A DNA stretch of 64,000 nt. Origin: Symbiodinium sp. CCMP2592 (taxonomy: Eukaryota; Sar; Dinophyceae; Suessiales; Symbiodiniaceae). The DNA is taken from assembly GCA_905221615.1 (NCBI GenBank), contig CAJNDT010005390.1, positions 234,994-298,993 on the forward strand, written 5' to 3'. Shown here in pieces: positions 1,720-54,263 of the stretch. The stretch's first letter is position 1, and every line of letters starts with the position of its first letter. The position numbers and the translations under genes are program-made. The notes under the pieces were generated by a model, which was not told the DNA's origin, ran no database searches, and worked only from the letters and a program-made list of their open reading frames with translations.

Positions 1720-1815
1720 TACCGTAACACCGAAGAACCTACATTTTTAAGGACTTATGTAAAAAAATCATAAGAAGGAACCCTAAAAAGGTAGGTCGTT
1801 CAGGGTTAAGGTAAT
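1720..1815. repeat. Palindrome family P11, copy in reverse orientation
   Basis: Inverse complement of the 49,630-49,720 element: AGGACTTAT, a central AAATCATA block and CCCTAAAAAGGTAGG in the same order. Ends in CAGGGTTAAGG. Confidence 0.75.
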
Positions 1816-10708: not shown

Positions 10709-10749
10709 ATACTACCCTAAACCCTCGCCGCTAACCCTCGGATCAAAAA

Positions 10750-11745
10750 ATGGACCCTCGAGTGCTCGTGTGTGCCCAAGCAGGTCGGGGCCACATTCTG
10801 CAGCAAAACAGGGCGTTCTTTTCGTGTGCCTGCTCTAAACCATCCGGTGCCTATGGGTGCCCAAAGTGGCCAAAGCCAGATTCTGCAGCAAAACAGGGCC
10901 GTTCTTTTCGTGTGCCTGCTCTAAACTGGGTTCCCAGGCTTAGGATCGAAAAATGGACCCTCGAGTGCTCGTGTGTGCCCAAGCAGGTCGCGGCCACATT
11001 CTGCAGCAAAACAGGGCCGTCCTTTTCGTGTGCCTGCTCTAAACCATCCGGTGCCTATGGGTGCCCAAAGCGGCCGAAGCCAAATTCTGCAGCAAAACAA
11101 GGCCGTTCTTTTCGTGTGCCTGCTCTAAACTGGGTTCCCAGGCTTAGGATCGAAAAATGGACCCTCGAGTGCTCGTGTGTGCCCAAGCAGGTCGGGGCCA
11201 CATTCTGCAGCAAAACAGGGCCGTTCTTTTCGGGTGCCTGCTCTAAACCATCCGGTGCCTATGGGTGCCCAAAGCGGCCGAAGCCACATTCTGCAGCAAA
11301 ACAAGGCCGTTCTTTTCGTGTGCCTGCTCTAAACTGGGTTCCCAGGCTTAGGATCGAAAAATGGACCCTCGAGTGCTCGTGTGTGCCCAAGCAGGTCGCG
11401 GCCGCATTCTGCAGCAAAACAGGGCCGTCCTTTTCGTGTGCCTGCTCTAAACCATCCGGTGCCTATGGGTGCCCAAAGCGGCCGAAGCCAAATTCTGCAG
11501 CAAAACAGGGCCGTTCTTTTCGTGTGCCTGCTCTAAACTGGGTTCCCAGGCTTAGGATCGAAAAATGGACCCTCGAGTGCTCGTGTGTGCCCAAGCAGGT
11601 CGCGGCCGCATTCTGCAGCAAAACAGGGCCGTCCTTTTCGTGTGCCTGCTCTAAACCATCCGGTGCCTATGGGTGCCCAAAGCGGCCGAAGCCAAATTCT
11701 GCAGCAAGACAGGGCCGTTCTTTTCGTGTGCCTGCTTTAAACTCT
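10750..11745. repeat. 204-bp tandem array, about five units
   Basis: The mark ATGGACCCTCGAGTGCTCG recurs at 10,750, 10,953, 11,157, 11,361 and 11,565 (periods 203, 204, 204, 204). Each unit has two halves sharing a ~46-bp core (GCAGCAAAACAGGGCCG ... CTGCTCTAAAC). Because 204 is a multiple of three one frame stays open for 356 codons (10,750-11,820), giving a Cys/Lys/Pro-rich repeated peptide. I regard the frame as a by-product of the repeat unless expression is shown. Confidence 0.92.
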
Positions 11746-11819
11746 GCCCTGACCTTCGGCGATTGGAAAACTGGTGCTGATTTTGGTGTACCAAATTCTG
11801 TTCATAAAATGTGCCTTTG

Positions 11820-12143
11820 AATGCAGGGCAGGTGCGAATCTCGAGGTCTCTTCCTTTCTTTTCGTGTGGCTGCTCTTAGAGTTGTCATCGCCGCCGTAAC
11901 GGTAGAAAGACTGTCCGCCTGCCTATAGCTGCATGGGTATTTCCTTCGTGTTGAACGCTTAAAGTCCTTAAGCTAAGGACAAATGCTCCGGGTGAGTTGT
12001 GGTGGGATCTATATCGAGGTCCACGGACGTGACGAACTCTCTTACGCAAAAAATCTCTGACGTCCGTCCTACATTCTTTTTACCGCAACAGTTTGGTCGA
12101 CACACGATCCTTTCATGTGGCAGCTTTAAACCATCCCGGTCTT
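11820..12143. other. Intergenic between array and right direct repeat
   Basis: Contains one degenerate remnant of the array core (TTCTTTTCGTGTGGCTGCTCT near 11,856). No gene recognised. Confidence 0.5.
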
Positions 12144-14361: not shown

Positions 14362-15942
14362 TCACGTGAAGATCGCGAGATGTGCCGAAATCAAGTACCG
14401 CTGCAACGTCCTGCGCATCAGCAAATGAGACCCAACACGCCTGCTCAGACGGGCTATCCGTCCCACCATATCTTCGTCGAGTTGAACGGAAGAGTGCAGC
14501 ACATTTGGCACCCATGGGTGCTGCCTAGAAAGCAGCAGCATATCCCGAAAGCCATGATGCAGGTAATGGATTTTGGGCATCAAAGGATACCTCAGACGAT
14601 TTTGTCGCAAACTCGCCTCAGCGAGGCGTGCATAGCAGCAAAGAAACCTCATACCCGCTTTACCCGCTTTCGCAGCCTCCTCCGAAGACATCCAATAGCC
14701 AGCGCTGTAGCAAACACGAAAACATAAGTTGGCTGAAGCCACACCCTCAAGCGCCAGCTCGGTGACTTCAGTGATCACGTATTGCCTCTTCCTCAAATAA
14801 TCTTCGAAGAAAGACAGAAGCACACGGGTATCATTGAACTTTGACCAAGCTCCAACTGGCCAAGCTTGCATTCCTGACTCCAGACCAAACAAGTTTAAGT
14901 CAATCTGTCCATAATGCAAAGTGAGTTTCGAGTCTTTTCGCCATGCCTTGTAAGCATCATTGAACTCGTCGATTCTGGTGTCGAGACTTTCCTTTGTGTC
15001 CATGCTTTCAAGAATTTCAGCAGCAGTGGATGCCACCATATTCTTTCCCACGCCACCATGAAAATTGTGCCATGCATCAAAGTACAAGTTGCTCGGAAGT
15101 GTTTCATCATCACAAGAGCAGCCCAACCCTTCAAAGAACCGTGGCAGTTCCGGCCAGGGTGGCACCTCGAAGAGTGTGTGGGACCACTCCGGGTACATAT
15201 TCATGTTCTCGAAAGGAACGTTAGGTGTTCCCGCCATGCAAACCCAACATATGCCGTGCCCAGCCACATCTCCAATCTTCTTTTCCACTCGTGCATAGTT
15301 CCGCAGCAGATGACCAACTTTGGCCAGGAATGGATTGTCGCCTGTTAGTCCCAGACATGCAGCATGGAACCGCCGGCCGTTGTAAAGAAAACCTTCGGTT
15401 TGCAATCGTCGGTAAGAAGAACCAATCTGAAAGGCAATGTCATCCCAGACTGACTCGGCCCCTTTGCCATAAATATGCTTCGGCACAGCGACATGAAGGA
15501 ATCTTGATTTCAGACTCCCGCCCATGTTCAGTCCCATTTTCTTAGCCCGATCATCAATGCTATGCAAAGAATTGAAAAGTTGTGAACCTTGTCCAACAGC
15601 ACCCCGCATACTCCACAACAGGATGCCTTTCTTGCGTTTGCCCCTTCCTTCGTCGCCATGCGAATAGAAAGGTAGTGTCCGAGCCAAGTTAAGCTTACCT
15701 GCTGATGCAGCCTCGAATATCCAATGGTCCGGAAAAATCTTGGAGAACCGGTTCCAGAACTCCAGCAGATTGCATTCATCAGGGAAAATCAGATCCAACT
15801 TGTCGCATTCAGCGAGAGCCGAAACCATTTTGTAGGGATCGATCCACGGAATCGGAGTTTCGTCCGGGCCAGCTTTGATGGTATCAATATCAACAGCCAG
15901 CGTGAACCCAGCAGTTCTGAGCCTCATGATGCTCGCGATCAT
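14362..15942 (-). CDS. Dinoflagellate multicopy protein, possible DDE-transposase-like exon
   Basis: A 526-codon minus-strand frame, the longest intact one in the 14-26 kb cluster. I recognise the layout from memory as a highly amplified Suessiales hypothetical family; no search was done. Visible landmarks are HGDEGRGKRKKG near residues 95-106, GHGICWVC near 228-235, FDAWHNFHGGVGKN near 288-301, and LMPKIHYLHH then QLDEDMVGRIARLSRR near 454-502. D97, D289 and the D/E group at 489-491 come in an order compatible with a DDE nuclease such as Plavaka/KDZ types; that is inference. The first ATG directly follows an in-frame TAA and lies just after a TTTGTACAG acceptor-like sequence, so this is probably a terminal exon rather than a whole gene. 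Upstream minus-strand exons at 17-26 kb may belong to the same gene. Confidence 0.7.
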   Translation of the reverse strand: MIASIMRLRTAGFTLAVDIDTIKAGPDETPIPWIDPYKMVSALAECDKLDLIFPDECNLLEFWNRFSKIFPDHWIFEAASAGKLNLARTLPFYSHGDEGRGKRKKGILLWSMRGAVGQGSQLFNSLHSIDDRAKKMGLNMGGSLKSRFLHVAVPKHIYGKGAESVWDDIAFQIGSSYRRLQTEGFLYNGRRFHAACLGLTGDNPFLAKVGHLLRNYARVEKKIGDVAGHGICWVCMAGTPNVPFENMNMYPEWSHTLFEVPPWPELPRFFEGLGCSCDDETLPSNLYFDAWHNFHGGVGKNMVASTAAEILESMDTKESLDTRIDEFNDAYKAWRKDSKLTLHYGQIDLNLFGLESGMQAWPVGAWSKFNDTRVLLSFFEDYLRKRQYVITEVTELALEGVASANLCFRVCYSAGYWMSSEEAAKAGKAGMRFLCCYARLAEASLRQNRLRYPLMPKIHYLHHGFRDMLLLSRQHPWVPNVLHSSVQLDEDMVGRIARLSRRVGSHLLMRRTLQRYLISAHLAIFT

Positions 15943-29750: not shown

Positions 29751-30117
29751 CCTTACATCCTAATTCTAACGCTACGCAGCCCGCCTCGGCCGCCGGCTGC
29801 AGTAGGGCCAGCAGGGGCGCAGAGCAGGGGCCAAACTGCGAAGGGCCTCTTAAAGCAGGTGTAATTTAGTTGCAGGGCCAGGGCTACTTGAAGAAGTGTG
29901 GCAAGTGTAGAGCAAGCACATGCAGCAAAACCCAAGTGCGCAGAAGGGTTGCAGGAATGAGATACAGAAGCAATGCCAGTGCTTGGTCCTGGTGATGCAT
30001 GATAAGTCGACGAGTCGTGTGGTCTGGCCGACGACGCGCCTTGGAAGTGTTCGACCCAGCAGTTTTCGACGGCAGGGCATGGGCCTATCGTGGCAAGCAC
30101 GACGAACAAAGACCGAG

Positions 30118-30840
30118 GGTTTGGGAAGGGGGGGCCGGAGGAGGAAGGGTGGGCCAGCAAGGGGGGCGGAGGAAGGGGGGAGGGGGGGGGGCAGGACAAG
30201 ACGGGGAGGGGGGCCGGGAAAGGGAGGAGGGGCTGAGGGGGGGCGGGGGCGAGGGGCAACAAAACAGCAAAACGACGGAGCTTCAAGGAGGAAGCAGGAG
30301 AGCCAAAGCACGCAAACGAAACATAAGAAGAAAAGGCAGTGGAGCCGGCTCGGTGGGGGGCAGGCCGAAAGAGAAGAAAAGGTCGAAAAAACAGAAGGGT
30401 GGACTGGCCGGCCGGAGGAGGGGCCAGCAAGAGGGGGAGGGGGGAAGGAAGGAAAACAAGCCAAAAGAAGTGCAGACAAGAGGTGGGAAAAGGGGCTGGG
30501 GGGGCGGGGAGGGAGGAGGGCTGGGGGGGGGGCAACAAAACAGCAAAACGAGAGCTTCAACGAGGAAGCAGGAAAGAAGGACGCAAACGAAACATAAGAA
30601 GAAAAGACAGTGGAGCCGGGGGCAGGCCGAAAGAGAAGAAAAGGTGAAAGAAAACGAGCAGGCAATCGAAAAAACACGCGAGGGCAGGACAAGACGGAAG
30701 GGTGGGGAGGACGGGCCGGAGGGGGAGAAGAGAGAGGGAGGGGGAGAGGGGGGGGGGGAGGGGAGGAGGGGGAGGGGAGGGGAAGGGGGGGGGGGGGGGG
30801 AAGGGGCCCGGGAGGGGGGGGCAGGAGGGGGGGAGGCAAA
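30118..30840. repeat. G-rich purine tract with ~275-bp duplicated unit
   Basis: Plus strand is dominated by GGGG, GGGA and GGAGG runs. A ~110-bp less biased segment occurs twice (30,257-30,382 and 30,534-30,645), sharing AACAAAACAGCAAAACGA and GGAGCCGG...CAGGCCGAAAGAGAAG. Long frames on both strands here (up to 353 codons) are compositional. Many G-runs could form quadruplexes. Confidence 0.85.
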
Positions 30841-31034
30841 TTCGGCAGCAAAAAAGGACGGAAGCCGGGCAAGGGGGTCGAAAACAGTCGCTAAAAACGG
30901 GTGGAAGTTTGCAGTTGGAGAAGGATTAGGTAGAGGGTTGGTTAGTATTAACCATCAAGACGCCAGAGGCCTTTGGCCTCGGCGGATTCCTACACCCTTG
31001 CTCGATCTGCGCAAAAGCCGTGACATCATTGGAC

Positions 31035-31358
31035 ATGGTCTCCGATCACAGTATCGCTAGTGGCCCCCTGCCGCCGCCTGAGCGGATGGAGCGCTGCGAA
31101 TTACTACTGGCCGAAGCGAAGAAGCGGGACTTCCCTCCTCCGGGCGCAGCAGGCGTCCGCCCCTAATGGTGCCAGCGATGGCACGGAGACTGCGATTCGG
31201 ACACGTGCGAGCGCCGAGGGCATTTCGAGGCCAGCATTTCGATGTTTGGTATGCAGGGCATGACACCTCAAGGAGCGATGAACTTTTCGACAGGCCCTGC
31301 CAATTGTGCTGTGCCGCTTTGGCAGAGCGGGGCTTCAGGAGCACACAAGGGGCGGTAG
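31035..31358 (+). pseudogene. Small coding fragment with one internal TAA
   Basis: Reads MVSDHSIASGPLPPPERMER and on to a helical CELLLAEAKKRDFPPP, then TAA at 31,164-31,166, and continues in the same frame with WHGDCDSDTCERRGHFEAS and MFGMQGMTPQGAMNFSTGPA to a TAG at 31,356. The uninterrupted frame over both parts and the Met/Gly/Gln-rich composition look like dinoflagellate coding sequence with one nonsense change, or two exons with an unrecognised intron. No family assignment. Confidence 0.35.
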
Positions 31359-47093: not shown

Positions 47094-47222
47094 GGAGGGT
47101 CGTGGGACTTAGTAAGCAGGTAGTAAGTAGACTTTTAAGTACCCTAAAAGGGACCCTAATTGGGGTTATGGTACTTGTAAGTCCCTAAACTAACCAGTTA
47201 CTAAGTAGTCCCCGACCCTCCA
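47094..47222. repeat. Palindrome family P3b, full copy
   Basis: GGAGGGTCGTGGGACTTAGT and ACTAAGTAGTCCCCGACCCTCC (read in two halves) are the arms; centre ACCCTAAAAGGGACCCTAAT. The core is shared with 820-888. Confidence 0.82.
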
Positions 47223-47844: not shown

Positions 47845-49628
47845 GGAACCATTGTGAGGCCGAAGTCTGTCACCGGGTGGGATGTTCTACATGTGGGCTA
47901 TGTATGGCTGTGTCAGGGTTCGGGGTTTCCGGCTCACGGTCTAGGTTTGGGGGTTAAGGGTTTAGGGTTTAAAGCGAAGGGGGTTTTCGGTGTCTCGAAG
48001 TGTTTTTCAAAGAACGCCACGTGAAGTATCCCGACAGTACGCCTAGCCCGATTTATGCGTCTGACTGTGACCTGGCCCAATACACGTCGTCTTTGTACAG
48101 GGTACCCTAAGCCAAACAGAAACCCTAAATAGGGTTGTTGGCTACGCAGGCAAATCCAGCTGACCTTAACTACAATGCGAAAAAAAGCACCGACCAGCTG
48201 CAAAAAGACAGTTTCTTTAGGATTCAGGGTTCATGGCTTCATGGTTTAGCATAATGTTTAGGCGTAGCTGGGCGTTGCAGAGACTACCCCATACGTCCGA
48301 GGTCTTGGCATCATTCAGTCCTGTATACGAACCTTATTGAGCCAAAGAGAACAAGGAAATAGCCCTCCCGAGGCTTTTCCTTTTGGCCCTGTGGGGCCTT
48401 ACAGGGTGGGTAATTCAGGGCGAAGCTGCTGCTTGTAGGAGGGTTGCAGGTTTGTGGCTTAAGGCTCAGGCGAGATCCGGACTGTTTGTAGACCACAGAT
48501 GCGGCGATCGAAATCTAGAGAGATGCTGTCATGATTGAACCTCATCCCAAATAAGATTTGTCGGGCATTAGAACGAGGTAAAGGCAATTCAAAATCCCAA
48601 TGTATTGTAGTCTTGGATGGCCGTGCGGGGCGTACAAGCAGTGTGAGCGCGTGAACCTCACCCGTCTAACTTGAGTTGAGAATTTGTTCATGCGGTCCAG
48701 ATAGCTCTTGATTCGAAGCCCCTGTCTTATTCTTGCTTGGATCATCATCATTTGCCACGCGTCAATATGTTGTCCGTAACATGAATGCTGTTGACATCAT
48801 TAGTATCAGCAGCAATAGTTCTTCGTGCTCATCTGTCCTTTCGCACGAATACTTCCTGCCCAGGTACATGGCAGCGGGTTGAGCTCATGTTCCGATTCAC
48901 GAGCAATGCGACCCAAACAGAGACGCTTGGGCAATCTAATTTCTTTAGAAGAATCCGGAGTCACTTCTTCGTTGTTCGACGTAGGCGTGTCGAGAGATAG
49001 GCGTGCCTTCTTCAGCATTTATGGATGAGGATCTCCCCGTTCGTTTGCGCGAGTCCCTGTTGCGGGGGAAATAAGATGACCGAGAAAAGGAACCGGATCT
49101 GGAAGAAGGGCCTTGCTTTGTTCAGGGCTTTCCGTTTCTGCTTACTCTTAGGGTTTAGGTCCTAGGTGCCACCTAGATCCACATACTCAACCATAAGGCT
49201 TGGCCTGCTGGTTTACCTAAACCCTAAACCCCTAAACCCCCAAACACTCAACGATACGGCTTGGCTTGCTGGTTTAGGTGACGTCGGATTTAGAAACTTG
49301 ACCATTTGGGCTTGCGCTACGTAGAGTCCTGTTCAGAGCCCAGTCCCGAAGGAATCCGAGGGGGCAGAAGCTACAATAGGGTTTCGGTTTTGAGGTGGGA
49401 AATCAATAAAATTATTCCTGAGGGTGCCTCAGTACAAAAAATACAACAGAATACAGATATATGTACATGCAAAATGCTGCCCAAGACCTCATTCCATTTC
49501 GTGGAGGCCCCTACACAACTACACTGCCATGTTGTGACATCCGGGCCCGCCGTGTGAAAAGACGGGGCCTTCAACACCTGGAGCTCGTATTCCGTATCTA
49601 AGACAGGGGGCTTTATAATGGTTAGACA
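47845..49628. other. Intergenic, no gene recognised
   Basis: Unique sequence with short telomere-like blocks (49,208-49,235). Overlapping 60-89 codon frames without domains. Confidence 0.4.
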
Positions 49629-49629
49629 T

Positions 49630-49720
49630 ACCTGGACCCTAAGGAACCTACCTTTTTAGGGTTCCCTAATATGATTTCTTTGTATAAGTCCTCAAAAAGG
49701 TAGGTTACTTGGGGTTAAGG
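49630..49720. repeat. Palindrome family P11, complete copy at the TIR-element junction
   Basis: ACCCTAAGGAACCTACCTTT on the left and AAAAAGGTAGGTTACTTGGGG on the right (read in halves), centre CTAATATGATTTC. Its last bases (TTAAGG) form the left copy of the target duplication of the AT-rich element. Confidence 0.8.
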
Positions 49721-50105
49721 AGCAAGCATAGGCTAACCCCACACCTCACATCCTATACTCCCCCCTATACTTTCACCCCAATTCTCTAACCACCTAATAA
49801 ACCGACCTTCCTGATACAACCCAAACCAAAAGCACTACCTACATCCACCACCTTACCACAATCCTGACCCACAAAAACCGAAAGCACCAGCTAACCCCAC
49901 ACCTCATACCCTATACTCCCCCCTACACTTTCAACCCATTTCTCAACCCGCCTAACATTTCAACCCTTAAATCCTTCAAAACACAAAGCACCTCCCACAA
50001 TCTACACAACAATCCCGAAACAAAGCAACCTACCAAACCCAATACAACAATCCAAAACACCATAACCCAAAGCGCCTAAACAATACTTAACCTAATCCAT
50101 AAAAT
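49721..50105. repeat. Left terminal inverted repeat
   Basis: The top strand is almost devoid of G (C/A-rich). Contains an internal direct repeat: GCTAACCCCACACCTCA followed by CCTATACTCCCCCCTA occurs at 49,732 and again at 49,892, about 160 bp apart. Confidence 0.88.
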
Positions 50106-50567
50106 TAAGCAATATAAGATACTGTCCTAATTGTCAGATATGTAGAAGTCATTTACTGTTTAAAAGTCTTAAGAAAAGCAAAGAGTATAATAAATTATGT
50201 AGGAGATGTTTAAACAGTATGAATGGTTTTAAACGCAAAGTTTTTTTTAAAAACTTTTTAAAAAGTTTTAATCTAAAGCTTTTATATAGTTTTATGAGCG
50301 ATGTAGATGATGAAGTAGTCAAGCCAATCAAGCGCATTAGCAGTCAAAAGATTTTAGAGCTCTGTTGAACTCATTGAGAAAAAGATTAACGAATTGTAAA
50401 CTAAACCTAAACCTGTTAATAAACCAATGGATAAAGATAGTGATGTGTATAAGAATAAGAGAAATGTTTATGTTAATAAATTGAATAACAAGGATATTAA
50501 GTTTCCAAAGAAAGAGACATTAGAATATTATGAAATTAAAATTGACGACCAAGAGAGAGCATATTAA
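50096..50567 (+). pseudogene. Broken zinc-ribbon gene inside the AT-rich element
   Basis: The open frame 50,096-50,368 reads IRYCPNCQICRSHLLFKSLK and then NKLCRRCLNSMNGFKRK: CxxC, a third Cys three residues on (CxxCxxC), His, and a second CxxC about 20 residues later. This is a plausible zinc-binding unit followed by a very basic Phe/Lys stretch. It has no ATG upstream of the Cys pairs (first Met codon at 50,219) and is closed by TGA at 50,366. Coding resumes one frame over: VELIEKKINEL, a TAA at 50,397, and PKPVNKPMDKDSDVYKNKRN to LEYYEIKIDDQERAY with TAA at 50,565. The two parts together look like one ~155-aa Lys-rich protein with a frameshift and a nonsense codon. Role unknown; a DNA- or RNA-binding protein of the element is plausible. 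Confidence 0.55.
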
Positions 50568-50627
50568 ATTAATTCTGTATTTTACAAAAACCATTTAAAG
50601 AAATATTTAGTATAATCATTACATAGT

Positions 50628-51017
50628 ATGTTTAGTTATGAAGAACAGCAGAAAATTATTAATGAGTTCTTAAATGGTTGTGGGGAAAAGCAGGAAGAAC
50701 CAGAAGAAGAAGATTTTAAAACAGAGTATGAACGGTTAAATAAAGAAGCTGGTGGGTATAGTAGGGAAATAAAGAACATAAAAACAAAAACCTACGTGCC
50801 AATCAAAAACGCATTGTTAAAAATATATGACAAAACTGATGTAAAAGATATTGATATGTATGAATATCGCCGTAAGAAGATGATTAATAATTATGGCTAT
50901 ACATTAGAAATTCATAAGCAAGGAAACAGATATGTTTGTAGTAAAGAAAAGTTGGAACATATAGATTTTAATAGAATGGAAAGAGCGGAAAACTATTACA
51001 GGAGTTGGCATTGTTGA
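50628..51017 (+). CDS. Intact 129-aa hypothetical protein of the AT-rich element
   Basis: ATG at 50,628 to TGA at 51,015. The protein starts MFSYEEQQKIINEFLNGCGE, has an acidic segment (EEPEEEDF), a Lys/Asn/Ile-rich middle (REIKNIKTKTYVPIKNALLK, DKTDVKDIDMYEYRRKKMIN), then NNYGYTLEIHKQGNRYVCSK and a C-terminus FNRMERAENYYRSWHC. Codons overwhelmingly end in A or T, unlike the surrounding DNA. The upstream sequence has a TATAAT-like word (GTATAATCATTAC, ~20 bp before the ATG). A hairpin follows the stop. I do not recognise the family. It starts 60 bp after the broken zinc-ribbon gene in the same direction and could share a transcript. Confidence 0.65.
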   Translation: MFSYEEQQKIINEFLNGCGEKQEEPEEEDFKTEYERLNKEAGGYSREIKNIKTKTYVPIKNALLKIYDKTDVKDIDMYEYRRKKMINNYGYTLEIHKQGNRYVCSKEKLEHIDFNRMERAENYYRSWHC

Positions 51018-51028
51018 TGACTATATAG

Positions 51029-51056
51029 CATTTTACTAATTAATTTTAGTAAAATC
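51029..51056. terminator. A/T-rich hairpin after the 129-aa gene
   Basis: ATTTTACTAA and TTAGTAAAAT are inverted repeats around TTAATT, 12 bp after the stop codon. Could end or stabilise the transcript, as hairpins do between genes of some viruses; inference only. Confidence 0.45.
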
Positions 51057-51149
51057 CTATGTTGTAGCAGTTCCGGAGGCAGGGTTATAATCTTTTGGGG
51101 ATTTTTTCTATTGGGGTCTTACCCCACACCTCAGATTAGGATATGGGTT

Positions 51150-51538
51150 ATTTTATGGTTGAGGGTAGGGTTTGTTTAGGTGCTTTGGGTTTTGGATTGT
51201 GTTTTGGATTGTTGTTTGGGGTTGGTAGGTTGCTTTGTTTCTGGATTGTTGTATTGATTGTTGGGAGGTGCTTTGTGTTTTGAGGGATTTACGGGTTGAA
51301 ATGTTAGGCGGTTTGAGAAATGAGGTAAAAGTGTAGGGGGGAGTATAGGGTATGAGGTGTGGGGTTAGCTGGTGCTTTCGGTTTTTGTGGGTCAGGATTG
51401 TGGTAAGGTGGTGGATGTAGGTAGTGCTTTTGGTTTGGGTTGTATCAGGAAGGTCGGTTTATTAGGTGGTTAGAGACTTGGGGTGAAAGTATAGGGTGGG
51501 GGTCAGGATGTGAGGTGTGGGGTTAGCCTATGCTTGCT
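51150..51538. repeat. Right terminal inverted repeat
   Basis: G/T-rich on the top strand, inverse complement of 49,721-50,105 including the duplicated subrepeat. The inner ~40 bp are more diverged. The terminal TGCTTGCT is followed by TAAGG. Confidence 0.88.
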
Positions 51539-51540
51539 TA

Positions 51541-52009
51541 AGGTAGGGTTCGGGGGATGCTATATTATATTCATCATACGGAACTTTCTTAACTATATAA
51601 CGAGTTACTCAGTCTTCTACTTAGTTGGTCTTAGCTTCACAGCGCCGTCAGGGTCGTCGTTCCTGGTGGACCAGGCTGGCAGAAGGGAAAGGGAGCTTGC
51701 GGTTGTTTGCTGGGTTTAGGGCCCAGGGTTATTATGCCAGACCTTTATTCTCTTACCATATATACCCCAATAACTTCAACCCTAATAGTGACTTTTGTTT
51801 CATTCCCTAAACCCCTCGCTCTCAATTCGAATATCCTCACACGCGAAGTACCCCTAGTGGCCCTAATGCACCCCCAAGCCAAGATGATTTTTCAGATTAA
51901 GGTTGACTTGGTGTGGAGTTGGAACCAGGCCGTCGTTTGAGAACATAAAGGACCCTGGTAAGTCCTTAATCTAAGGACCCCGCAGTAAAGTATCCATAAA
52001 ATGAAGAAG
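51541..52009. other. Intergenic, no gene recognised
   Basis: Unique sequence. Frames of 60-77 codons without domains. Confidence 0.4.
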
Positions 52010-53462: not shown

Positions 53463-53639
53463 ACAGGGCAGCATAATTTTCAGGAGTGTTTGCGAAACGG
53501 GCTTTCAGCGAGGCCCTGGTCCGAGGGGTGGCGAGAACTGGCCTGTTCCGAGATCACTCTGATGCCGCGGGGGCGTTGCAACGACAACCAGACCAACATC
53601 CACACGGTTCGATCAAGAAATAGTCCTAAATGGAAACAG

Positions 53640-53719
53640 CGGCAACAACAACAGCAGTAATTGTTACATTGTTGCGAGCAGCAACAACAACTACAACAGC
53701 AATAACAACAACAACAACA

Positions 53720-53780
<61 letters not shown>

Positions 53781-53827
53781 GTACTAGTACTACTACCTAC
53801 TAGTACTACTACTACTACTACTACTAG

Positions 53828-53886
<59 letters not shown>

Positions 53887-54235
53887 CTACTACTACTACT
53901 ACTACTACTACTGCTACTGCTACTGCTACGCTACTGCTACTGCTACTACTGCTACTGCTACTACTGCTACTGCTACTGCTACTGCTGCTGCACTGCTACT
54001 GCTACTGCCTACTGCTACTGCTACTGCTACGGCTGCTACTGCTACTGCTACTGCTACTGCTACTGCTACTGCTACTGCTGCTACTGCTACTGCTACTGCT
54101 ACTGCTACTGCTACTGCTACTGCTACTGCTACTGCTACTGCTACTGCTACTGCTACTGCTACTGCTACTGCTACTGCTGCTGCTACTGCTACTGCTACTG
54201 CTACTGCTACTGCTGCTGCTGCTGCTAATAAGCCC
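53640..54235. repeat. Trinucleotide arrays: (AAC)n, (ACT)n, (ACTGCT)n
   Basis: Starts as CAACAA text, becomes pure ACT at about 53,717, then from about 53,930 an ACTGCT hexamer array to 54,228. The minus-strand poly-Ser frame (54,002-54,439) is an artefact. The array ends immediately before the LINE frame opens. Confidence 0.96.
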
Positions 54236-54263
54236 CTTGGCTCCGCCAGGATGAGAAAGAGAG

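Follow-up and report, generated by a model that had tools for sequence, protein, structure and literature searches.

A three-gene terminal-inverted-repeat element inserted into a foldback repeat of Symbiodinium sp. CCMP2592, a possible satellite of integrating protist viruses

A short A+T-rich segment enclosed by long terminal inverted repeats (TIRs) lies at positions 49721-51538 (1,818 bp) of a 64,000-nucleotide stretch of contig CAJNDT010005390.1 from the dinoflagellate Symbiodinium sp. CCMP2592, and raises the question of what kind of element it is and how it came to be there. The whole stretch is called the window below, and all positions refer to it. The segment was found to be a true inserted element, lying within the end of a resident miniature inverted-repeat transposable element (MITE) and carrying three small genes, A, B and C. 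Most probably it is related to integrating protist DNA viruses, either as a reduced form or as a satellite. The specific reading preferred here, with a probability of about one half, is that of a satellite-like TIR element that is non-autonomous and is mobilized in trans by an integrase of the Polinton-like virus (PLV) or virophage type.

The insertion was established from the borders and flanks. The host MITE of about 90 bp (49631-49720, + strand) was recognized from matches to the flanks and from its own arms; it is a foldback repeat (arms 49631-49657 and 49694-49720) preceded by TA at 49629-49630, with the partner TA at 51544-51545. Its end coincides with the left border of the element, which was inserted there and split that end. 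TAAGG was read directly on either side of the element, at 49716-49720 (TTAAGG if 6 bp are counted) and at 51539-51543, with no strand assigned. Joining 49601-49720 to 51544 onward, a junction that omits the element together with a single TAAGG, reconstitutes the end of the MITE: the joined flanks match window 1813-1720 at 75 of 94 nt (E = 4e-19) up to the last base of the MITE, including the TA duplication, and a second MITE copy at 1381-1439 at 47 of 59 nt. GGGTTAAGGTA is found at the same place in opposite ends of both copies (1785-1813 and 1409-1378, same reading direction). This comparison within the window serves in place of the empty sites, lacking one TAAGG, that the original prediction had proposed as a check. 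The restored end indicates that the element jumped into the MITE, duplicating TAAGG, or TTAAGG with one shared T. A target duplication of 5 or 6 bp, expected beforehand from the direct repeat at the borders, is thus well supported; this single copy can be read either as 5 bp (TAAGG) with a perfect TIR or as 6 bp (TTAAGG) with the shared T. TAAGG alone is common (210 occurrences on both strands of the window), so that the restored MITE is the chief evidence for the duplication. Borders of the piggyBac type were also considered, TTAA being present on both sides, but three unpaired bases are then left at the left end and this reading was judged less simple. The MITE copies of the window (1720-1813, - strand; 1381-1439, + strand; 49629-49720, + strand) have ends like CCTTAACCCT and TA duplications, and weaker resemblances occur at 844-883 and 47136-47173 (E = 0.03).

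The left TIR (49721-50105, + strand) comprises 385 nt and the right TIR (51150-51538, - strand) 389 nt, with G+C contents of 44.4 and 45.5%, respectively. By direct reading the termini (AGCAAGC.../...GCTTGCT) are an exact inverted match. Global alignment of the arms gave 360 identities, 24 mismatches and six gaps in 390 columns, and ungapped alignment gave 96% identity over 277 nt; the exact termini and the inverted similarity of about 385 bp per side that had been claimed were both borne out. Counts per 50-column block (45, 49, 50, 50, 45, 45 and 43, with 33 of 40 in the innermost block) indicate that identity decreases inward, 194 of the 200 outer columns being identical. The TIR is asymmetric between strands, the left arm being A/C-rich with 17 G in 385 nt. 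A 74-nt motif is repeated within the TIR at a spacing of 158 nt, with copies at 49724 and 49882 on the left and, mirrored, at 51304 and 51462 on the right. A stray copy of a TIR motif, CTAACCCCACACCTCA, with one mismatch, is located in the core at 51118-51133 (+ strand, left-arm orientation), near the right TIR. A possible role for G-quadruplexes was dropped because one motif was found in the left arm and none in the right. No further copy of the element was detected within the window, where the residual matches spanned 13-59 nt with E values of at least 0.028.

The core consists of 1,044 nt with a G+C content of 28.8%, compared with 44.5-64.7% in all other 1 kb bins of the window (that is, excepting 50001-51000). 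It contains three small genes on the + strand, of which A is truncated, B broken and C intact. An A+T-rich core of about 1 kb with coding sequence had been predicted correctly; the suggestion of a small TIR element with two genes of its own holds for a gene-bearing TIR element, and the number of genes is corrected to three. The element has no open reading frame (ORF) longer than 129 residues and no stop-to-stop frame of at least 160 residues. Directly 3' of the stop codon of C, a hairpin at 51020-51065 (+ strand) with a perfect 10-bp inner stem (51030-51039/51046-51055) was calculated at -14.7 kcal/mol (z = -4.17), and none of 200 shuffles was as good; an inner stem of that length or longer, taken by itself, is not unusual, being present in 10 of 200 resampled cores. 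The hairpin is a possible signal for the 3' end of a transcript. Searching the window with Rfam at gathering scores gave no match. The 21-nt dinoflagellate spliced-leader (DinoSL) motif was not found with up to three mismatches, a result that neither establishes nor excludes a dinoflagellate host.

Gene A is represented by a stop-to-stop frame with CPNCQIC...LCRRC (50096-50365, + strand) that continues into the start of gene B. Its similarity to the relative P0020 begins at residue 23 of that protein (window 50102); about 22 initial codons are missing from the window copy, since the left TIR abuts the remainder. The motif CxxCxxC...CxxC, with five Cys residues invariant in all eight aligned relatives, suggests a zinc-ribbon-like product. 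Searching a large protein collection with A gave 21 matches, 11 of them clusters that contain half of A or more: the whole Cys module is present in nine (P0020 and P0023-P0030) and its second half in two (P0021 and P0022). Three matches cover the A-B linker and B only (P0031-P0033) and seven the start of B only (P0034-P0040). All eight aligned relatives matched DUF7685 weakly (the best, P0023, with E = 9e-4 and 19.5 bits against a cut-off of 27), and nothing below E = 0.34 was found for A among PDB sequences.

Gene B (50294-50566, + strand) is split, with codons 1-22 at 50294-50359 and the remainder in another frame at 50364-50564, interrupted by an in-frame TAA at 50397-50399; intact relatives have about 90 residues. 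In the same collection 73 clusters, comprising 218 member sequences and including fragments, are related to it. In an alignment (A5) of 40 of these proteins, which fall into four groups at 75% identity, 38 have 86-91 residues and the others 92 and 101, with pairwise identities down to 55%; the sequences were picked for near-full length, so that the even length partly reflects the selection of the sample. The near-constant length across diverged relatives suggests selection on the protein. The predicted structure had a predicted local distance difference test score of 66 and a predicted template-modelling score of 0.27 and was not used. A PDB sequence match (E = 0.0014) with a chain annotated as alpha-amylase was attributed to chance, as can happen with a helical protein. 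A sub-cut-off Pfam match of the B relative P0094 to a family of plant-virus proteins (E = 0.0017) was also attributed to chance. Three B relatives (P0038, P0040 and P0096) have about a dozen extra residues (DALASSGRSLD) at the same position, perhaps a small secondary insertion.

Gene C (50628-51017, + strand) encodes 129 residues, for which a winged-helix/excisionase-like fold, of the kind seen in excisionase and MerR-type DNA-binding proteins, is weakly predicted. Its relatives form 19 clusters with 59 member sequences; 16 sequences fell into seven groups at 75% identity. The nearest relative is 98% identical and P0018 about 38-41%. No match was found among PDB sequences, and a Foldseek search of the PDB was headed by Cdt1 (E = 0.37-0.5), which is not significant. 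The cluster P0015 (18 members) has an additional N-terminal region of 78 residues, which may represent an extra fused gene in a different version of the element, and gave no IMG/VR match.

The order of the genes was assessed from read-through relatives. The zinc part of A is joined to B in P0020, P0021 and P0022, the A-B linker to B in P0031, P0032 and P0033, and B continues into the B-C spacer in P0031, P0039 and P0106 and weakly in P0101 (E = 0.013). All follow the order of the window and none extends to C. In three of the 19 C clusters the relatives of B and C have longest contigs of equal length (138366, 1860292 and 3055890), and therefore probably share a contig. Judged from these sequences, the A-B linkage is direct and the B-C linkage indirect. 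The relatives of A, B and C support the view that the element belongs to a large family.

Searches for known viral functions were negative within their scope. A Pfam scan of C, a piece of B and relatives of A, B and C detected no polB, rve integrase or capsid, and none of the relatives scanned reached the cut-off. Six IMG/VR scans covering A, B, C, P0015 and P0018 gave pattern matches in five, among which no relative was confirmed, and an 18-nt TIR word had no match there. GTDB genomes contained no relative of C, the only gene scanned, and no match to a 19-nt TIR word; a phage search gave no match for C (A and B were not tried), and PHROGs and NCBIfam gave weak, scattered matches only. No such three-gene element was found in a literature search of titles and abstract openings, which had most subscription journals, bioRxiv and Repbase outside its scope.

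The coding space of the element is too small for a transposase, an integrase, a polymerase or a capsid gene. Given the ORF and frame lengths, self-movement is unlikely; we know of no enzyme small enough for an element of this coding capacity to move itself, and its non-autonomous state as it stands is supported. Cleavage and joining of the TIRs would instead be carried out in trans by a DDE enzyme, for which the retroviral-type integrase of a PLV or a mavirus-like virophage is the most likely candidate. Polintons end in 5'-AG. The duplication length, the 5'-AG end and the long TIRs fit the retroviral-type integrases of Polintons, PLVs and mavirus-like virophages. Such integrases are reported to produce typically 6-bp duplications; for PLVs, TIRs several hundred bp long are reported, in some cases with duplications of 5-6 bp (PMC12220804). 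A dinoflagellate host could provide a helper, since two Symbiodinium genomes are listed with two and four mavirus-like capsid genes and Polarella with 2,535 capsid genes (PMC10120064), and the annotation of Breviolum minutum includes Maverick repeats (PMC11071213). The putative products of A (zinc-ribbon-like) and C (winged-helix-like) might be DNA-binding proteins that regulate or stimulate the copying of the element or its excision, perhaps while the helper infects the cell. Having a truncated A and a disrupted B, the window copy could make C at most and would depend on a helper and on sibling copies.

Four other explanations were weighed. The element may be a relic of internal deletion, A, B and C being the terminal genes of a Polinton-like or virophage-like parent of 15-30 kb; we regard this as doubtful, although A is missing its initial codons precisely at the point where it meets the left TIR, and the stray TIR motif lies near the right TIR in left-arm orientation, both signs of rearrangement. 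The longer C relatives of cluster P0015 and the capsid genes of PLVs and virophages reported from protist genomes, including dinoflagellates (PMC10120064), point the same way. However, the A-B order recurs in several read-through relatives, so that A and B, at least, seem to form a stable unit, and no trace of capsid, polB or integrase was found in the element and no relative in IMG/VR. An ordinary family of cut-and-paste DNA transposons, non-autonomous and with a 5-bp duplication, that acquired three genes by chance would account for the perfect TIR with TAAGG, the simplest reading of the borders, and transposase-less TIR elements are described in many eukaryotes (PMC7789003). It is nevertheless unlikely: a gene length kept nearly constant across diverged subfamilies (for B, down to 55% identity) is unlike chance capture from a host, and the core is far more A+T-rich than its surroundings.

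A host-integrating satellite of giant viruses resembling transpovirons, replicated by the machinery of the virus and with A and C as regulators, has in its favour the 385-nt TIRs, the zinc-ribbon-like A, the putatively winged-helix-like C and the hairpin after C; transpovirons are described with TIRs of 380-520 nt, a zinc-finger core protein, terminator hairpins flanking the genes and, in two clades, a transcriptional regulator (PMC7031253). Transpovirons are about 7 kb long and encode a helicase, whereas the element has none; the likeness comes without a demonstrated sequence relationship or an IMG/VR relative, and this explanation is highly improbable. An assembly join or contaminant, which the contrast between core and flanks could suggest, was given next to no weight and was rejected because TAAGG is present at both borders and removal of the element cleanly restores the MITE; relatives also lie on contigs of many sizes, up to 5.5 Mb.

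Movement by a borrowed integrase is the preferred reading. An extension of it, put forward tentatively and at odds well below even, is a new class of minimal integrating satellites in protists: TIR elements of about 2 kb with a conserved A-B-C cassette (B being helical) and virus-like A+T-rich DNA, which would reach many copies by borrowing a viral or virophage integrase and possibly act on that virus. PLVs and virophages are abundant in protist genomes, and to our knowledge small parasites of them have hardly been described. If true, such a TIR satellite, with a small and conserved set of genes of its own, would illustrate how small elements of this kind can become, and its A, B and C proteins would be new candidate regulators of, or interferers with, protist DNA viruses. 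With more than 200 gene B relatives present in public contigs, the claim can be tested directly.

Elsewhere in the window, a 361-residue open frame with tandem Cys-rich repeats (VPALNWVPRLRIEKWTLECSCVPKQV...) lies at 10735-11820 (+ strand), and one of 526 residues without a Pfam match at E <= 0.01 at 14362-15942 (- strand). The strand is strongly purine-rich at 29753-31060, with long low-complexity open frames (GC skew 0.50 and AT skew 0.60 at 30001-31000). A long low-complexity tract at 53480-54254 has open frames on both strands, and beyond 54 kb the G+C content is 53-59% per kb.

Compared with known systems, the element shares with Polintons and PLVs the TIRs of several hundred bp (385/389 nt, where at least about 100 bp is expected), the 5'-AG end familiar from Polintons, the 5-6-bp duplication and the A+T-rich body. 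It differs in having three small unassigned genes in place of protein-primed PolB, rve integrase, capsid proteins and packaging ATPase, and in its 1.8 kb against a reported 14-40 kb (PMC12220804). The membership of the Polinton or virophage group offered by the original prediction agrees with the element in TIR length, 5'-AG end and 5-6-bp duplication only; it is not established, since the element has no space for polB, integrase or capsid genes and the IMG/VR scans confirmed no relative. Endogenous mavirus-like elements (EMALEs) likewise have a low G+C content relative to the host and TIRs (0.2-2.3 kb), but complete ones are given as 5.5-21.5 kb with mostly 17-21 genes (PMC8547959); major capsid protein, penton, ATPase and protease genes are absent here. 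OmPLV of Oxyrrhis marina also combines TIRs (232-858 bp) with a drop in G+C at its borders in a dinoflagellate; it is described with many viral genes and a tyrosine recombinase leaving no target duplication (PMC12721341), a route that, on that description, does not fit the element. Transpovirons of Mimiviridae, besides the likenesses weighed above, are described with few genes and no DNA polymerase, but reside in giant viruses (PMC7031253); here a 1.8-kb insertion lies in a MITE and no ORF is large enough for a helicase. With TIRs, a target duplication and no transposase, the element falls among non-autonomous TIR transposons in the broad sense. It stands apart from MITEs, which are short and have no coding capacity, by its 385-nt TIRs and by three genes with relatives, one of them intact.
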